Positions 47,918 to 58,048 of a DNA stretch of 64,000 bases are shown here, piece by piece. Below the pieces are notes generated by a model that searched no databases, was not told where the DNA came from, and saw nothing but the letters and a program-made list of their open reading frames with translations. Every line of letters starts with the position of its first letter. The stretch's first letter is position 1. Position numbers and translations under genes: made by a program. Source of the DNA: Opitutales bacterium (GTDB lineage: Bacteria; Verrucomicrobiota; Verrucomicrobiia; Opitutales; JABSRG01); the NCBI GenBank assembly GCA_028280845.1, contig JANQKZ010000019.1:62001-126000 (forward strand). The letters are read 5' to 3'.

Positions 47918-49324
47918 ATGGTTTCAACCAAGATCCACCCCCTGACCCTCTGCCTGCTCGTTTCGACCCTCGCCCCGGTTCACACCGCTCTGGGTGTTCA
48001 ACCCAAGGTTGAAGAACGCCCAAACCTGATTTTCATCCTCACCGATGACCAGCGCTGGGATACCCTCGGGTTTGCCGGAAACGAGATCATTCAAACCCCC
48101 CATATGGATCAACTGGCAGAGGATGGATTCTATTTTGAGAACAGTTTTGTCACGACCCCCATCTGTGCGACCAGTCGGGCCAGTCTTGTCACCGGACTCT
48201 ACGAACGCACCCATGGATTCACCTTCGGGACCCCTCCCCTTCAGGGTCAATTCGTCGATCTTTCCTATCCCAAGCTGTTGAAAGCAGCCGGATACTACAC
48301 CGGGTTCATCGGCAAATTTGGCATGAGCTTCGAGGATGATGCAGATCAGGACCTCTTTGATGTCTACGACCGCCCCGGAGAGCAATTTTGGGCCACCACC
48401 TACTACCGGTTGACCAGGGACCACACCGGGCATCGCCACCTGACGCGCGAAATCGGTGACAAAGGAATTCGCTTCCTCAACAACCGCCCCACCGATCAGC
48501 CCTTCTGCCTCTCCCTCAGTTTTCACGCCCCTCATGCAGAGGACATCGATCCCCGGCAGTTCATCTACCCGGTCGAGTTGGAATCCCTCTACAAAGACGA
48601 TACGATACCCCCGGCTCCGCTTTCGGATCCACACTTTTACCGGGAACAGCCCGAATGGGTAAGAGTCGGCTTGAATAAAATCCGGTGGCACTGGCGCTTC
48701 AGCTCTCCTGAACAATATCAGGAAATGGTCAAGGGCTACTATCGGATGATTACCGGAATCGACATTCAAATCGGTCGAATTCGCGATCGGCTACGCGAGC
48801 TCGGAATAGACCAAAACACCATCATCATTTTCATGGGAGACAACGGATACTTCCTGAATGAGCGTCTCCTGGCTGGGAAATGGCTCATGTATGAGAATAG
48901 CCTCCGGGTCCCCCTCATTGTCTATGATCCACGAGAAGACGCCCCCGTCCCACAGCGTCTGGATCATCTCGCGCTCAATATTGATATCGCCCCCACATTG
49001 CTTCAATACGCAGGAATCCCGATCCCTGACTCCGTCCAGGGAAAGCCACTCCAGCATGCTATCCGGGGAAGAGATGACTGGAGAACGGCATTCCTTTGCG
49101 AGCATCTATTTGAAAACCCCAGGATTCCTAAAAGCGAAGGCGTCCGGACAGAACAGTTTAAGTATTTTCGTTATATTGATCACCCCGAACACGAAGAACT
49201 CTACGATCTCCATACTGACCCACTCGAAGTTCACAATCTGGTCGAGAATCCACAGTATGCCAAAGTGCTTCAGGAGCTTTCGCAGCAATGCGATGATTTG
49301 ATTGAGCAGAGCCTGATGCCCTGA
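47918..49324 (+). CDS. Secreted sulfatase with C-A-T-S-R active-site motif
   Basis: A 468-residue exported sulfatase. FILTDDQRWDTLG (Asp43-Asp44) starts the metal site; GFIGKFGMSFEDD replaces GKWHLG; FMGDNGYFL gives the second metal pair. The formylglycine site reads C-A-T-S-R at Cys83 followed by ASLVTG; the usual Pro is Thr, a variant that occurs in some sulfatase subfamilies and is still convertible in principle. The C-terminus has ELYDLHTDPLEVHNL. It belongs to a different subfamily from the sulfatases at 16103 and 22446. Its own regulator (GntR/LacI hybrid) lies upstream and an AraC regulator lies convergent downstream. Confidence 0.87.
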   Translation: MVSTKIHPLTLCLLVSTLAPVHTALGVQPKVEERPNLIFILTDDQRWDTLGFAGNEIIQTPHMDQLAEDGFYFENSFVTTPICATSRASLVTGLYERTHGFTFGTPPLQGQFVDLSYPKLLKAAGYYTGFIGKFGMSFEDDADQDLFDVYDRPGEQFWATTYYRLTRDHTGHRHLTREIGDKGIRFLNNRPTDQPFCLSLSFHAPHAEDIDPRQFIYPVELESLYKDDTIPPAPLSDPHFYREQPEWVRVGLNKIRWHWRFSSPEQYQEMVKGYYRMITGIDIQIGRIRDRLRELGIDQNTIIIFMGDNGYFLNERLLAGKWLMYENSLRVPLIVYDPREDAPVPQRLDHLALNIDIAPTLLQYAGIPIPDSVQGKPLQHAIRGRDDWRTAFLCEHLFENPRIPKSEGVRTEQFKYFRYIDHPEHEELYDLHTDPLEVHNLVENPQYAKVLQELSQQCDDLIEQSLMP

Positions 49325-49341: not shown

Positions 49342-50388
49342 TTACTTCGCTTTAGCCGATGCCTTCCTGCGCTTCCCCTTTTTAGTCGGCTTGGATTCCT
49401 CGGAAGGTGAACCATGGGAAAAGTCCTCACGGTCAAAATAGGTCGTTTTCGGGTCATCTTCTGCCCCACGTCGCCTCGCCTCCAGGCGAGCGCGAAATTC
49501 TTGAGGGGACTCCCCCTTGCGATTTTTAAACACCCGGGCAAAGTAGGCAGGATCGGAAAATCCACTCGCATACGCGATTTCCGAAACATATAAGGCGGAA
49601 TTCTCCAGGGCCATGGCTGCCCCATCAATTCGGATACGCTGAATGTAATGAACCAGTTTCTCCTTGGTTTCTTTGTGAAACAGATGCGAGAGGTAATCAG
49701 GAGAGCATCCCAGTTTTCCTGCAATTCGCGACACATTTAACTCTGGATCGGCAAATTGTTCGCGAACCAACCACTTGGCTTCGAAGACCTTCCCCAAGTC
49801 CGCATTGAGATCTCCTGAACCCGTCAGGAGCAAATTCTTAAACATGCCAAAGAGTGCCTGGATCAACCCGCTCATGATCTGGTCCCTGGCCGGACTTGGA
49901 GCATGAAAACTCCGGATAAGCGATTGGGATAGTGTCACATAAGTTTCCAAGTCCGGAGCATCAAAAAACTCCATAACATCGATATCCGGTTTCCCCTCTT
50001 GGACCTCTTTCGCAAAGTGGAAACTCAGTGTATGGCTATACAATCCGATGACCAGATTGCGGAAGGGTTCCTTGCCCGCCTTGACCTGCTCCCCATGGGG
50101 GAGGCCCGCAGGAATTATACAAAACTCTCCCTCCAGTAAATCGATCGCTTCCTTGGGAAAACTGAAGTGCGTCTCCCCTGCCAACTGGAAGAAAAACTCC
50201 GGTTTATAGTGAAAATGGGTCCCTTTGTTCTTCTGCATGAGACCGGTCTCACGCGGGATTTTCAAGGACAGGCGCTTCCGTTCCGAGTCTTCAATGAATC
50301 GATCGAGCACTTCCAGCATCATCCGTCGATTATTCTCGGATTCGCTGATAGTTTTGTCTGGGGAAGAAATGGGGGATGCTTCCGGCAT
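49342..50388 (-). CDS. AraC-family regulator with cupin sensor and basic tail
   Basis: A 348-residue regulator. Residues 50-170 form a cupin-like sensor (THFHYKPEFFFQLAGETHF, FCIIPAGLPHGE). Residues 205-300 hold the two helix-turn-helix units (LNVSRIAGKLGCSPDYLSHL and VSEIAYASGFSDPAYFARVF followed by KGESPQEFR). The last 45 residues are a low-complexity, Lys/Arg/Ser-rich extension (SEESKPTKKGKRRKASAKAK), longer than usual for the family and possibly a non-specific DNA-binding arm. It is divergent from the LolA-like/RND operon at 50641. It may control that operon or the convergent sulfatase; a small inverted repeat lies in between. Confidence 0.87.
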   Translation of the reverse strand: MPEASPISSPDKTISESENNRRMMLEVLDRFIEDSERKRLSLKIPRETGLMQKNKGTHFHYKPEFFFQLAGETHFSFPKEAIDLLEGEFCIIPAGLPHGEQVKAGKEPFRNLVIGLYSHTLSFHFAKEVQEGKPDIDVMEFFDAPDLETYVTLSQSLIRSFHAPSPARDQIMSGLIQALFGMFKNLLLTGSGDLNADLGKVFEAKWLVREQFADPELNVSRIAGKLGCSPDYLSHLFHKETKEKLVHYIQRIRIDGAAMALENSALYVSEIAYASGFSDPAYFARVFKNRKGESPQEFRARLEARRRGAEDDPKTTYFDREDFSHGSPSEESKPTKKGKRRKASAKAK

Positions 50389-51542: not shown

Positions 51543-54290
51543 ATGCAAGTTGCTCTGATTGAGTTTGGGTTTCGGCGGAGCCTTTGGATCCTGATCCCAA
51601 CTGCTCTTTTGACCTTCTTCGCATGCCTGGCCCTCCGAAACCTCGAATTTGATGTCAGTAGCCAGTCCCTGACTCCACCCAGCCATCCTGATAAGTTAGC
51701 CCATGAACGGGTCCGGATGGAATTCGGATCGGATATGATGGCACAGGTATATGCTGAGGATACTCAACTCTTCTCCCGCGAACATCTCCTCACCCTCCGC
51801 TCAATTAATGATGCGCTAGCCGAACTGCCCTTCGCTCAACGGGTCGACAGCTTGTTTACTCTCCCCGATATTCGAGACGAGGATGGGTTCCTGGAGATTT
51901 CCCCCCTCCTCGACGAGATCCCTGATGATCAGCAAGCCATCGATCTCAAACTCCAGGCCGGTCTCCAGAACGAACTGCTGGAACGATCTGTTCTATCCCC
52001 GGATGGTACGGCGACGGTCTTAAACATCTACCTCGATCCGGAGGTCATCAATTCCCGACCAATCCGGGAAATCTATGAAGCGATCGAATCGCTCCTGGAA
52101 CCCCACAAGTCCGAATTCGACCAATTGTTCCAGCTGGGAAAGCCAGCCCTGAATACCTGGCTTCTTTCTGCCCTGGGAAGAGATCAGCGACACATTCTTC
52201 CAGCTGCCCTCGCTCTCCTTTTTATCATTTTGTCCTTCAATCAGCGGAGTTTCCTCGCGGGAGGCATTCCGATTTTGAATGGGTTCATTGCGGGCGCGAT
52301 GACTTTCGGTATCATGAGCTTCTACGGGATTCCCGTCAATCTGCTCAACTACATCCTCCCTGCCCTGATTCTTGTGGTCGGTGCCACAGAGGATATGCAC
52401 ATCCTCCATGAATTCCGGACCCAGATCAGAAAAGGGGAGCCCGCCGAGACCACGATTCGAAATACCGCCAAGTCGATCTGGTTGGCTTTGCTCCTCACCG
52501 CGGTCACTACCATCCTGGGGTTTGCCGCCACCTCACTGAGCAGCCTGCCCATCCTGCAAGACTTTGGAATTGTGGCCATGATTGGCATGGGGATCCGGTT
52601 TATGGTGTCGGTCCTGGTCCTCCCCGCCTTGCTCCGGGTCCTTTACCGGTTCATGAATACCGGGGAAGAAAGCAATCTGGTTTCCCCCACAGAGAGCGAA
52701 CGCATCAGCCGGTTCATTCTCGATAAATGTGTGCCCCATGGCATGCGGGTAGTCGGGCTCCTCATCATTGTAGCCTTGGCCTCCATCCTCTTTTTCAAGG
52801 ATATTCGCATCAGCAATGATCTGGTCTCCTTCCTCAACAAAGACGCAGAAATATACAACCAGATGGATCGGAGCGCCGAAAAACTAGCCGGCTCCAAAGT
52901 CCTGTTCCTCACCCTGTACGATCGGGAAGATTCGTTTTACGAACCCATTAATCTGAACCGGTTAGCTGCCATCACGGACTATCTTCGTACCATTCCTGAG
53001 TTTGATTCTGTCACCTCCTTTGCCAATATCGTAGCACGGATTAACCAACAGCTCCGCGGTGGCGAACCGGAAGACTACAAGATTCCGGATTCCGCGACAG
53101 CCGTCCGGCAGATGCTCTTTCTCGCCGAACTGGAGGACTTTTCTTCCTACATCTCCAAAGACATGGGCCGGGCCAACATCGTTATCCGGTGCAATGTCCA
53201 CGACAGTAGTCGATTGAATGAGCTGGTCGAGGAGATCGATGAGGAAATCGCCAGCGGTCGGTTCGGCCCCCAATTCTTCACAATCACCGGCGAAGCCATG
53301 CTCGTTGCCTCAGCCGTCGATGCGATTATCCAGGCCCAGGTGCTCTCCTTGGGTGGCATGTCGGCTATCCTCTTTATTATTATCGCCGGCCTCTTTCTTT
53401 CATTGCGATGTGGAGCCCTCACCCTGCTGTCTAACTTGTTTCCCATCACTTTGATCTTTGGTATCATGGGCGCATTCGGAATCCCGCTCAATGTCGGAAC
53501 CTGCATGGTGGCCGCCATCACCTTGGGAATTGCGATCGATGACACAGTACACCTCCTGGTTCATTTTAACCGGGAGCTGAAAACAACCAAGAAAGAATAC
53601 GTCGCCATCAAAAATGCGCTCCAGCATGTGATGAACCCCATCATGTCAACTACCCTGGCGCTCAGCACCGGCTTTCTTGTTTTGACCTTTACCAGCTTTG
53701 AGCCGGTTCGCCAGTTTGGCCTTTTGAGCGCTGGTGTGCTTATGGTGGCCCTTGTGACCGACTTTGTGGTAACTCCTGTCCTGTTTGCCAACACGCGCCT
53801 GGTCACCCTTTGGGATATTCTTGGCTTATCCTTGAGGCGGAAATTGTTGCAGGAATCTCCGCTTTTCCAGGGCTTTACTTCATGGCAGGCCAAAAAACTG
53901 ATCCTCGCTTCCAATATCGAGGAGTTTCCCGAAGGTGCGCGGGTTATCCGTGAGGGGGATGAAGCTGATAAAATGTACCTGGTGCTGGAAGGAGAACTCG
54001 ATGTCACCCTGGGTGAGGACAAGGACAGGGTAAAGATTGCTTCGATGGGGGTCGGTGAAGTCATCGGGGAAGTGGCCGTGGTCGCCCGGGAAAAACGCAG
54101 CGCCGATGTGTTCGCGGTGACCACGACGAAGTTGCTCTCCCTCGATACGCTTTCACTCGAACGACTTCAACGCTTCTCCCCCTACCTCTCCTCCAGGCTG
54201 TTTCTCAACCTGGCCAATATTATTGGCAAACGCCTCATCGTCCGCACCAAAGAGACCACGACTCCATTTCCTGTTCGCGGTCAACATTGA
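51543..54290 (+). CDS. RND/MMPL-family exporter with C-terminal cyclic-nucleotide-binding domain
   Basis: A 915-residue inner-membrane protein (ATG 51543, with a TTG immediately before it). It has two MMPL-like halves: an N-terminal helix, a periplasmic domain (residues 40-215), a five-helix SSD-like bundle (LALLFIILSFNQRSFLAGG, LPALILVVGATEDMHILHEF), a second periplasmic domain and a second helix set (VAAITLGIAIDDTVHLLVHF). After about residue 760 (RRKLLQESPLFQGF), a cNMP-binding domain follows: IEEFPEGARVIREGDEADKM, YLVLEGELDV, GEVIGEVAVVAREKRSADVF, with Glu843 and Arg852 at the phosphate-binding cassette positions. RND exporters of this group move lipids or hopanoids. The cytoplasmic cNMP domain suggests nucleotide-gated export. 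Confidence 0.88.
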   Translation: MQVALIEFGFRRSLWILIPTALLTFFACLALRNLEFDVSSQSLTPPSHPDKLAHERVRMEFGSDMMAQVYAEDTQLFSREHLLTLRSINDALAELPFAQRVDSLFTLPDIRDEDGFLEISPLLDEIPDDQQAIDLKLQAGLQNELLERSVLSPDGTATVLNIYLDPEVINSRPIREIYEAIESLLEPHKSEFDQLFQLGKPALNTWLLSALGRDQRHILPAALALLFIILSFNQRSFLAGGIPILNGFIAGAMTFGIMSFYGIPVNLLNYILPALILVVGATEDMHILHEFRTQIRKGEPAETTIRNTAKSIWLALLLTAVTTILGFAATSLSSLPILQDFGIVAMIGMGIRFMVSVLVLPALLRVLYRFMNTGEESNLVSPTESERISRFILDKCVPHGMRVVGLLIIVALASILFFKDIRISNDLVSFLNKDAEIYNQMDRSAEKLAGSKVLFLTLYDREDSFYEPINLNRLAAITDYLRTIPEFDSVTSFANIVARINQQLRGGEPEDYKIPDSATAVRQMLFLAELEDFSSYISKDMGRANIVIRCNVHDSSRLNELVEEIDEEIASGRFGPQFFTITGEAMLVASAVDAIIQAQVLSLGGMSAILFIIIAGLFLSLRCGALTLLSNLFPITLIFGIMGAFGIPLNVGTCMVAAITLGIAIDDTVHLLVHFNRELKTTKKEYVAIKNALQHVMNPIMSTTLALSTGFLVLTFTSFEPVRQFGLLSAGVLMVALVTDFVVTPVLFANTRLVTLWDILGLSLRRKLLQESPLFQGFTSWQAKKLILASNIEEFPEGARVIREGDEADKMYLVLEGELDVTLGEDKDRVKIASMGVGEVIGEVAVVAREKRSADVFAVTTTKLLSLDTLSLERLQRFSPYLSSRLFLNLANIIGKRLIVRTKETTTPFPVRGQH

Positions 54291-54342: not shown

Positions 54343-54813
54343 ATGAAAAAGCACGCCATTGTCCTAATTATTTGCAGTTTAATTGGTCTCACCTCCGGGT
54401 GCCAAACCACACAACCCGTGGAATCCGCCGGCACGGAGCAGACCTTTGTTCCCTTTGGGACAGATTTTAGTTCTGAGGTCAGAGACATCCGATTGATCCC
54501 TGAAATGGACGCCTCCGCCTTGCTTCAGGCCCTGGGGGAGCCCGACGATCGTAAGCTCTTTCCCAATGAGGATCCGCCCTCCCTCATCTGGATTTATGAA
54601 GATTTTTTGTTTCAAACCCAGGATGAAGTCATGGTCGATGTGGTGGTAACCGTCATTCCTGCTGCCGGGGGTGGCCAGACCGCTCGTATTGAGGAACCTG
54701 TCTTCGAAACACAGACACTCGATACGTTTAGGGTCACGGAACTCCTTATTCAGGAGGACAAGCTCATCAGCTGGCGCCAACAGCAAATCAGCCGGCAGCG
54801 CATTACGAACTGA
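54343..54813 (+). CDS. Small lipoprotein downstream of the RND exporter
   Basis: A 156-residue lipoprotein: MKKHAIVLIICSLIGLTSGC has a clear lipobox (TSGC, Cys at 20), and GAGGAG lies 4 bases before the ATG. The longer frame upstream overlaps the RND gene and is not used. The mature part (QTTQPVESAG..., EDFLFQTQDEVMVDVVVTVIP) has a small beta-rich look and no known motif; a SmpA/OmlA-like lipoprotein is possible. It lies 52 bases after the RND stop and probably completes the export unit as a partner on the inner or outer membrane. Confidence 0.72.
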   Translation: MKKHAIVLIICSLIGLTSGCQTTQPVESAGTEQTFVPFGTDFSSEVRDIRLIPEMDASALLQALGEPDDRKLFPNEDPPSLIWIYEDFLFQTQDEVMVDVVVTVIPAAGGGQTARIEEPVFETQTLDTFRVTELLIQEDKLISWRQQQISRQRITN

Positions 54814-54913: not shown

Positions 54914-57900
54914 CTAGTGAACCGGGACCTCGACCACAAAGTCCTCAAAAAGCCCATAATCGAGGACCCGGTAAGCCTCCCCGGGAGGAAACTCAGATGG
55001 CCCAATCATCCAGGTCCACGGCGTGACGAATCCTTTTTCCGTATCCCGATGGAAGGGTCCAAATAGATTCCTCAGGGTTCCAACGACTTCCACGCTGATT
55101 TCATGAGCCCCGGGCTCCAAGGGACGTTCCAGCATAAATTCGTGCGGCTTCCAACCGATCCTGCCCATCAGCTGGCCATCGACCAGCACCCGGGCGACAG
55201 CTCCATACCAATCCGGGAGACGAACCCGGATCGGGCTGGTCTCGGCTAAATCGATAGTCTTAGTATATCGAACAGTGTCGAAATCAAAAGAGCGGCCCTG
55301 GCTAGCCCAGCTCCCCAGTCCCAGTTCTCCCGGCGGCGCAAGCTGAAAGCCTGGCTCCATTGGCTGGAGGGAGAAATCTCCCATGAGGTATATCGGTTCA
55401 ATCTCTGCATGGATATGCATGGGCGTGATCCTGAGAGTGACAGTGTTGCGGCCCGGAACAAGGTAAGGTCCGACCTCAAACACATCAAAATCATCATCCA
55501 GGAAACCGCCCTCAGCCGCGCCACTCAGTCGATTTCCATTGATCGACAGGTCATACAAATGGGCCCATTCAATAGCGACTTTCAATGAGGTGGGCAAAAA
55601 TCCATCTTTGAATTCAAAGGGGTAACTCACTTGAAAACCAGAATCCGCGGCAAACTGATCCTGCATATTCAATACATTGGTTCGATACTGCACGGCGACC
55701 GACCACGGATTAAACCCAAAGCGACCATATCGGCTGAGTCCATTCAACTCATAGGCTCGGCTTGAAGCCGTGGAAAAGTATATATCGGACCACGCTTCAT
55801 CCCCTATTTGAAGATCCACAAAATCCAGCACGTGAACATTGGGCCCCATGGATTCGACACGCGTTTCGCCTTTAACTTCCATCCATTGCGTGGGTGGCGT
55901 GCGTGAAGGGTGAAGATGGTCACCTGCCTCATAGGGAATCAGACAGAGGAAGCTACCTCCCGGCTCAAGCTCATGAGACACCTGCACCATCTCACCTTGA
56001 GTATCATAGGGCCATGGTTCGATCATTCCTGTCTCGCAATTCAACCCATAGACGGAGGCGCCCCTGGCTTGAAACTCTACCCTTGCCGGTGCTTCCGCAC
56101 TGAAATTCGCCCAAAAGATTAACTGTCCATCATTCAACTCCCGCCGCATATGATGAACCCGGCCTCCAAAGGATAAGGGATCAACCGGCCAGAACTGAGG
56201 ATCAGTCAGTTCTGGAAGGTTCAACGTCTCCGCGCGTAATCCGTTATTGAAAGTGGTCAATGCATTAACCTGGCTGGCGTACTCTCGAAAGAGCTGATCC
56301 AGTTCAGGCGAGGCTGCCCCCTCAATTAAAGTCGGGGCAACTCCGCACAAAATGACCCGTCCTCCACCCTGTAGATAGGACCGTAGCTGCTCAAAGGTGG
56401 ATCGGCTCATCGTTTCAAAGTGAGCCGGGAAAATGACTTGGTCATAACTTCGCTCTCCGACGATCCACCTCCCCCCTTCGGCTCGACCATGGTCTTCCAG
56501 GATCCGTTCGGATCCCAAGTCATACCCCAATTGGAGCCGCTCCATCAGGTCCAATAAATGACGAAAAGTCCTCTCCAGGCCGTCCAGATGGGCTGAGGGT
56601 TTACCCGGCACGGTATACATCCAGGCCGTTGTAGTGGGTTCCAGAATCAAAGTGGTGTTGACCTGCTCTCCCCGGGTGAGGGCAAAGGAAAGCCGGTGGT
56701 AGTAACGGGCCACTTTCCCATAGTCTTCCCAGTAGGGTGCATGGACCGAGAAGGACAAGGGGAAATCCCCCTTTCGCCTGCCCTTGATCGTCTGAAAAGA
56801 CAAATGCTGGTTGAGGAAATTGACGCCGAGGGCGAATTGCCAATCGTTGAGGCGTTTCATATCCGCAAAGTCGAGATCCCATCCACTGCCACCGTGGGTT
56901 TCTGACAGGGCGCGTTCCCGCCCCAGCTGATTGCATACACTCGCCAGTTCTTTGATCGCGCGGACATTGCCAAACTGGTCGGGCCGGCGGTCCTCGTTGT
57001 TAAAAAGCATATCGATCCCTGGCACCTGGTGGTAGGCATACATAGCCATATTATCTCCGCCATGCGTCGGATCGGGCCAGCCGTGCTCCCAGTAGTGCCC
57101 TGTCCATTTTAACCCCTTTTCCTGAGTATAGGCATACCAGGGTTCGGACCACCGCTCGATAAACAAATCCAGCAATACCTTGTAGTAGTGATAGCGGACC
57201 TGCCTCCAATTGCCAACCTCCTCCACCAGGCTGAATACATGGGGCTTTAAATCATACCCCCAACGATTCTCAAAATCCTCCCACAGGCTTGGGGTAAACC
57301 GCAAACTGTCTCTCGCCGGATAGGCCCGGATATTGGGTTCATCGGTAAATACGCCGGGGATCGAAGCGCCCAGATCACCCCCGAACCGCCGCTCCATCTC
57401 CGCCATTGTAACTTCGATGAAAGTCTCGGTGACACCAGGCAATATAAGATCCACATAACGACTCCCCCCATACCAGCCGTTCGTTGTCTCCCGCAGGTAG
57501 GTCACACCATACCGAACCGGAGTCGTTTCCGACACCTCTCCACTGCTTACGCGACTTACATCATTTCGTTCCACAACGAAATCATAATCATGGCCGCCTT
57601 CCATCTCCCCCGATATGCGTTCCACCCGGAATGCTGTTGGATGCGCTACTGATTCCGGCATCACTGCGGCCACATGCCCCCCGCCAAATCCGCTGGGAAA
57701 GGAATTCTCGTCGTAGATCCAGAGCACCATGTCACGCGCCTTCGCTTCCTGTAGAGCGAATGCCCAAAGATCAAACCATTCCTTGGACAGATATTCGGTA
57801 ATCAACCCTGGACGCGGATGTATAAATGCACCGTGAATCCCCTGCTCCTTGAAGGCCTCAAGGTCCCGAACAATCTTGGACTCCGTCACCACGCCGTTCC

Positions 57901-58048
57901 AGACCCACAAAGGCATGGAACTGTAACCCCGAGGAGGAGCACCAAACCCTGCCTTCAAGGTGGAGACATCATCCTTTGCGACCGAGGGGAAAACCGCGAA
58001 TCCCCCACACATCAACCCGATAAGGAAAAGGTATGCCCAGGCGCGCAT
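54914..58048 (-). CDS. GH106-like alpha-L-rhamnosidase-family protein
   Basis: A 1044-residue secreted protein. After the signal peptide, LKAGFGAPPRGYSSMPLWVW starts the GH106-type catalytic barrel with GIHGAFIHPRPGL, VLWIYDENSFPSGF, GVFTDEPN and SETHGGSGWDL, the last two carrying acidic catalytic candidates. The C-terminal half has beta-sandwich and CBM67-like domains (DWYGAVARVLVDGQLMGRIG, PLEPGAHEISVEVVG). GH106 enzymes release L-rhamnose from pectin and related glycans. The fold-level call is by motif and layout; a related uncharacterised barrel family is the alternative. It lies 12 bases after the DUF1080 gene, so the two are co-transcribed. Confidence 0.8.
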   Translation of the reverse strand: MRAWAYLFLIGLMCGGFAVFPSVAKDDVSTLKAGFGAPPRGYSSMPLWVWNGVVTESKIVRDLEAFKEQGIHGAFIHPRPGLITEYLSKEWFDLWAFALQEAKARDMVLWIYDENSFPSGFGGGHVAAVMPESVAHPTAFRVERISGEMEGGHDYDFVVERNDVSRVSSGEVSETTPVRYGVTYLRETTNGWYGGSRYVDLILPGVTETFIEVTMAEMERRFGGDLGASIPGVFTDEPNIRAYPARDSLRFTPSLWEDFENRWGYDLKPHVFSLVEEVGNWRQVRYHYYKVLLDLFIERWSEPWYAYTQEKGLKWTGHYWEHGWPDPTHGGDNMAMYAYHQVPGIDMLFNNEDRRPDQFGNVRAIKELASVCNQLGRERALSETHGGSGWDLDFADMKRLNDWQFALGVNFLNQHLSFQTIKGRRKGDFPLSFSVHAPYWEDYGKVARYYHRLSFALTRGEQVNTTLILEPTTTAWMYTVPGKPSAHLDGLERTFRHLLDLMERLQLGYDLGSERILEDHGRAEGGRWIVGERSYDQVIFPAHFETMSRSTFEQLRSYLQGGGRVILCGVAPTLIEGAASPELDQLFREYASQVNALTTFNNGLRAETLNLPELTDPQFWPVDPLSFGGRVHHMRRELNDGQLIFWANFSAEAPARVEFQARGASVYGLNCETGMIEPWPYDTQGEMVQVSHELEPGGSFLCLIPYEAGDHLHPSRTPPTQWMEVKGETRVESMGPNVHVLDFVDLQIGDEAWSDIYFSTASSRAYELNGLSRYGRFGFNPWSVAVQYRTNVLNMQDQFAADSGFQVSYPFEFKDGFLPTSLKVAIEWAHLYDLSINGNRLSGAAEGGFLDDDFDVFEVGPYLVPGRNTVTLRITPMHIHAEIEPIYLMGDFSLQPMEPGFQLAPPGELGLGSWASQGRSFDFDTVRYTKTIDLAETSPIRVRLPDWYGAVARVLVDGQLMGRIGWKPHEFMLERPLEPGAHEISVEVVGTLRNLFGPFHRDTEKGFVTPWTWMIGPSEFPPGEAYRVLDYGLFEDFVVEVPVH

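Follow-up and report, generated by a model that had tools for sequence, protein, structure and literature searches.

The nearest tested precedent for a cyclic-nucleotide-binding domain (CNBD) acting on a secondary transporter is the sperm Na+/H+ exchanger SLC9C1, whose activity is shifted by cAMP and whose cAMP control is abolished by mutation of the cassette Arg (PMC6052114). On the export side, the nearest tested relative among the descriptions compared is AmeABCD, in which the gene for an HAE3 pump accompanies those for an outer-membrane protein and a LolA-superfamily protein of the DUF1329 type; deleting AmeABCD lowers both tolerance of monoterpenes and efflux of dye (PMC6394551). The portion of a 2023 review considered here presents the post-translational control of RND pumps as known mainly from small accessory proteins, mentions bacterial MFS transporters fused to CNBDs, and names no RND-CNBD fusion (PMC10710835).

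Such a fusion is encoded in the window, the whole stretch of 64,000 nucleotides of Opitutales DNA analysed here, where an open reading frame with an ATG start and no internal stops specifies an RND/MMPL transporter followed by a C-terminal CNBD (Table 1). The protein resembles SLC9C1 in joining a secondary-active transporter to a CNBD but belongs to another transporter superfamily, SLC9C1 being eukaryotic, equipped with a voltage sensor and devoted to ions rather than hydrophobes. With MmpL4, MmpL5, MmpL3, HpnN and AmeD it shares the 12-TM RND fold and the putative proton-relay Asp residues, whereas a CNBD does not figure in the descriptions of these proteins that were compared; the AmeD unit, too, encodes a LolA-superfamily protein, along with an outer-membrane protein (PMC6394551). 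An appended CNBD is common to the window protein and the MFS fusions touched on in that portion of the review, which differ in their transporter superfamily (PMC10710835). MlotiK1 and SthK carry a C-terminal CNBD with the same cassette on a membrane protein and give good profile and structural matches, but are ion channels without proton-coupled export.

Table 1. Features of the fusion locus and its surroundings, in window coordinates.
Feature	Position	Strand	Basis or remark
Sulfatase	47918-49324	+	
AraC-type regulator	49342-50388	-	divergent
LolA_like periplasmic protein, 287 aa	50641..51504	+	PF17131 E 5.4e-34; DUF1329 E 6e-6; signal peptide by eye
RND/MMPL exporter with C-terminal cyclic-nucleotide-binding domain, 915 aa	51543..54290	+	ORF translation, Pfam
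RND part, residues 1-748, 12 TM helices	51543..53786	+	model secondary structure; MMPL, Sterol-sensing and Patched matches
Asp284, TM4, GATED-x-H, putative proton relay	52392..52394	+	D in 86/86 (first set), 109/133 (larger set)
Asp666, TM10, AIDDT-x-H, putative proton relay	53538..53540	+	D in 133/133
cNMP_binding domain, residues 793-875	53919..54167	+	PF00027 E 9.1e-17, 61.3 bits vs cut-off 27.5
Phosphate-binding cassette, G842-E843-V-A...R852-S-A854	54066..54104	+	Glu/Arg conservation; short helix 843-848
C-terminal helix, residues 880-904, likely lid/C-helix of the CNBD	54180..54254	+	model secondary structure
Small lipoprotein, lipobox LTSGC	54343..54813		downstream of transporter; no Pfam match
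GH106-type rhamnosidase	54914-58048	-	

The preliminary description of this DNA had read the gene as two MMPL halves followed by a C-terminal cNMP domain, an architecture that Pfam confirms: the MMPL profile (PF03176) matches in two stretches within the first 750 residues (E 1.7e-29, 103.3 bits against a cut-off of 20.5), where Sterol-sensing and Patched matches are also found, and the cNMP_binding profile takes up the C-terminal region. In the AlphaFold model of the whole protein (55-sequence alignment; mean pLDDT 89.7, pTM 0.83), 12 long helices in the RND arrangement and two periplasmic domains are joined by a short linker to the CNB domain, and the helix pattern places the periplasmic loops at about residues 34-199 and 421-583, after TM1 and TM7. 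The nearest Foldseek neighbours of this model are the mycobacterial MmpL4 and MmpL5 (E 2e-25, TM score 0.65 by query length), and identity to the solved HAE3/MMPL structures is about 15%. Profile, two-repeat 12-TM topology and acidic residues in TM4 and TM10 all place the protein in the MMPL/RND superfamily, and the two acidic residues, Asp284 and Asp666, are a putative proton relay by analogy with RND/MmpL transporters. As the best NCBIfam match, the HAE3 subfamily model TIGR00921, scores 199.5 bits and thus falls below its cut-off of 351.9, the transporter is termed HAE3-like only.

Modelled alone (76-sequence alignment), the CNB domain reaches a pLDDT of 92.8, and its best VIA-align matches are solved CRP-family receptors, several with cAMP bound (4ev0, a CRP-family protein of T. 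thermophilus, Z 20.2 and 2.3 A over 141 residues; 4a2u, Z 19.7; 3r6s, Z 19.3). When solved chains are ranked by sequence profile, most of the closest ones are regulatory domains of cGMP- and cAMP-dependent kinases, with SthK and CRP further down, and membership in PF00027 is supported by both the profile score and the CNB fold. The cassette sequence GEVAVVAREKRSA contains Glu843 and Arg852, which lie, as previously proposed, within GVGEVIGEVAVVAREKRSADVFA, and the model forms a short helix over residues 843-848 as in the P-helices of CNBDs; in the C-terminal helix, Asn889 is kept in 85/86 homologs. Across 133 distinct fused homologs, Arg occupies position 852 in 125 and Glu occupies position 843 in 109, with both residues present in 105. 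The close clade, made up of the window protein and its nearest sequences (17 in all), retains both throughout (17/17) at an overall identity of about 35-45%. The signature of ligand competence is thus present and conserved, and neither an absent pocket nor a consistent loss of the Arg, the two outcomes that had been named as arguing against a nucleotide-binding domain, was encountered. Such a signature is necessary but not sufficient, and some CNBDs bearing it bind no cyclic nucleotide. Loss of Glu or Arg affects 28 of the 133 homologs, roughly one in five across the wider family, so cyclic-nucleotide regulation is not universal in it.

The fusion is found in Verrucomicrobiota, Desulfobacterota and Gammaproteobacteria and more rarely in Planctomycetota, Deferribacterota and Spirochaetota, and a paralog in the same genome, 42% identical, is likewise fused and preceded by a LolA-like gene. 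Because the same arrangement recurs in 133 distinct homologs and in this paralog, a chance domain or an assembly chimera is ruled out. A scan of named genomes returned nothing with a single-protein query and 80 loci, nearly all full-length fusions, with an alignment-based one, the hosts being Verrucomicrobiota/Lentisphaerae, Desulfobacterota, Gammaproteobacteria, Candidatus Anammoxibacter, Calditerrivibrio and a Spirochaetales bacterium. The fusion occurs in a small minority of genomes in each of three surveys, which covered 388 genomes from the phylum of the window, 369 from the class to which locus L062 belongs (Gammaproteobacteria) and 395 from the phylum that includes L040 (Desulfospira). 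In a tree of the RND part, parsimony requires three changes between fused and unfused states; as the root and several supports are weak, we claim neither a single origin nor a definite number or direction of fusion events. Two side observations concern gene structure: in one genome (L022 and L028, G008:C55) the RND-CNBD gene is present as two open reading frames of 597 and 338 aa, reflecting a frameshift, a pseudogene or an assembly error, and in another (L237, G955:C55:30363-36774) two RND-CNBD genes stand in tandem.

Upstream, the LolA-like gene that had been noted beside the transporter is borne out by its PF17131 match; 38 bp separate its end from the transporter gene. Of the 118 fused loci with enough upstream DNA, 60 have a LolA-like gene immediately upstream, and such a gene is also found near 14 of about 42 unfused relatives, which makes it a trait of the transporter type rather than of the fusion. 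Of the proposed three-gene system, which counted the downstream lipoprotein as a member, only the LolA-like/RND half survives: when 52 genomes were searched, the window lipoprotein had only weak matches, in 5 other genomes, and the full fusion was found in none of these 5, so that we reject the lipoprotein as a conserved partner and take the conserved unit at the window to be the LolA-like gene and the RND-CNBD gene. Lipoprotein export, as put forward in the preliminary description, is also unlikely, because PF17131/DUF1329 proteins of the LolA superfamily encoded beside HAE3-type pumps have been tied to the export of hydrophobes, as in AmeABCD, and not to the Lol pathway (PMC6394551). Relative to AmeABCD, the window has the LolA-superfamily gene beside the RND gene, and an adjacent gene for a barrel-like outer-membrane partner was not found in it. 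A barrel-like gene does follow the transporter in 32/116 loci, mainly in Desulfobacterota, where it forms the third gene; it was not found next to the closest relatives of the window protein. Its products, of roughly 460-590 residues, match no Pfam or NCBIfam name above cut-off, and their signal peptides (by eye) and C-terminal Phe (20/22) lead us to regard them as probable outer-membrane barrels. In close Opitutales relatives and the paralog (L030, L109-L111), a gene for a small Lys/Ala-rich (KKAAKK) protein lies just downstream. The sulfatase and the rhamnosidase that flank the region suggest that the surroundings serve polysaccharide degradation, with no relation to the exporter.

The strongest evidence that the domain may read a cyclic mononucleotide is its linkage to cyclase genes. 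A class III nucleotide cyclase is encoded next to the transporter, or with the LolA-like gene alone in between, in nine loci whose fusions are complete (L040, L043, L062, L069, L079, L092, L191, L198 and L201), and the contig-truncated L102 makes a tenth; among the nine, the cyclases of L069 and L092 were called by a home-made profile and the other seven by Pfam. The cyclase reading frame overlaps the start of the transporter in 4/10 (L043, L062, L069 and L102), the LolA gene of L040 is preceded by a PAS-cyclase and those of L198 and L201 by AAA/TPR-type cyclases, a cyclase of this last type immediately precedes the transporter in L191, and L079 has a divergent Cache-HAMP-cyclase with a similar one in L092. 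As the linked cyclases are of several kinds, with MASE6-like membrane, PAS, Cache-HAMP or AAA/TPR domains, the linkage arose more than once. In three of the cyclase-linked genomes the class III cyclases number only two in all. Given about five cyclases in 4 Mb, chance alone would give about 0.8 loci with one within 2.5 kb; against this, at least five separate arrangements give a P of about 0.002, a rough figure that ignores the clustering of cyclases evident at L191. At that locus (G521:C50, about 50500-73300) five class III cyclase genes lie in about 23 kb around the fused gene, and the linkage there is weaker evidence because the genome is cyclase-rich and several cyclases cluster near the transporter. 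The sole cyclase match among the unfused set is L102, whose transporter gene is cut by the contig end, and none was found in the flanks of the other roughly 40 unfused HAE3-like loci, flanks that are mostly 1.5 kb and shorter than those of the fused loci. Glu and Arg are kept in all nine resolved cyclase-linked loci; 9/9 against 105/133 is not significant alone, and we do not claim that an intact cassette is tied to cyclase adjacency. In the window's own lineage an adjacent cyclase gene was not found; the window genome, 4.79 Mb in 62 contigs, contains eleven cNMP_binding matches in all and three class III cyclases.

An extra C-terminal domain of about 150 aa is present in 30/133 homologs (among them L039, L044, L057, L063-L065, L068, L075 and L248-L258) and matches Pfam GGDEF in the seven members scanned. 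The canonical GG[DE]EF motif occurs in 0/30, and the product-binding I-site RxxD is kept, by eye, in about 25. Degenerate GGDEF domains of this kind are usually read as non-catalytic and potentially c-di-GMP-binding, and the MMPL-CNBD-GGDEF transporters possibly read two second messengers.

These observations bear differently on what the appended domain might do. It could have the same gating role and yet sense another small ligand than cAMP, such as cGMP, cUMP/cCMP or c-di-GMP, a reading that we hold to be somewhat unlikely. The structural matches do include CNB folds with cUMP (8jsk) and the c-di-GMP-responsive CLP (3iwz), and the GGDEF-like domains added in thirty homologs, most with RxxD, would fit a c-di-GMP connection; the window genome, however, has no match to a GGDEF protein, which argues against c-di-GMP here. 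The cyclases themselves point both ways, that near L040 having non-adenylate-like residues at the positions that we presume to specify the base, while L138 of the window genome has the Lys/Asp pair that we presume to mark adenylate cyclases. Alternatively, the CNB fold may no longer sense a cyclic nucleotide and may have become a structural or protein-interaction module, for instance for oligomerisation or docking. The homologs without Glu or Arg speak for this, the cassette pattern being gone outright in L060, L077 and L048 and Val replacing the Glu in a Gammaproteobacterial subgroup (L039/L080), but such a module would leave the cyclase linkage unexplained, and both residues are invariant in the window clade despite its sequence divergence; we judge it unlikely.

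That the membrane part has given up export for receptor-like signalling, in the way that Patched was adapted, is very improbable. The Patched and Sterol-sensing matches are what such a reading would draw on, whereas the Asp of TM10 is invariant in all 133 fused homologs and that of TM4 is kept in 109, and both the LolA-like carriers and the barrel-like outer-membrane protein of Desulfobacterota point to envelope export.

We therefore favour a cyclic-nucleotide-regulated exporter of lipids or other hydrophobes as the probable identity of the window protein, in which ligand binding, the preference for cAMP over cGMP or another nucleotide, the direction of the effect and the substrate are all features that we infer. 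In this model the cytoplasmic C-terminal domain would bind the cyclic mononucleotide product, most likely cAMP, of a class III cyclase; the C-helix would close over the nucleotide, and its movement would be passed to TM12 and change the transport rate, as in the CNBD-bearing exchanger SLC9C1, with the hydrophobic substrate being handed to the LolA-like carrier. Cytoplasmic nucleotide control, as anticipated in the preliminary description, gains support from the retained signature, the cAMP-receptor-like fold and the recurrent adjacent cyclase genes, and the presence of such genes beside related pumps hints at direct switching of the pump by a second messenger. Both domains are familiar, while their combination and the cyclase linkage appear undescribed: no description of an MMPL/RND-CNBD fusion was found in open-access full texts, and the pairing of domains may already have entries in protein databases. 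We give even weight for and against a broader proposal, that the fused proteins form a so far undescribed family of RND lipid/hydrophobe exporters, spread over several phyla, whose activity is governed directly by cyclic mononucleotides. Some lineages would draw these from a dedicated cyclase encoded in the same operon, and others would integrate a further second messenger through the added degenerate GGDEF domain, possibly a c-di-GMP receptor. If true, the export of envelope lipids or hydrophobes would be directly under cAMP or cGMP, without a transcription step; with the second-messenger sensor covalently attached, a single Arg would provide a clean handle on RND pump gating, and the cyclase-transporter operons would offer a ready pairing for reconstitution.
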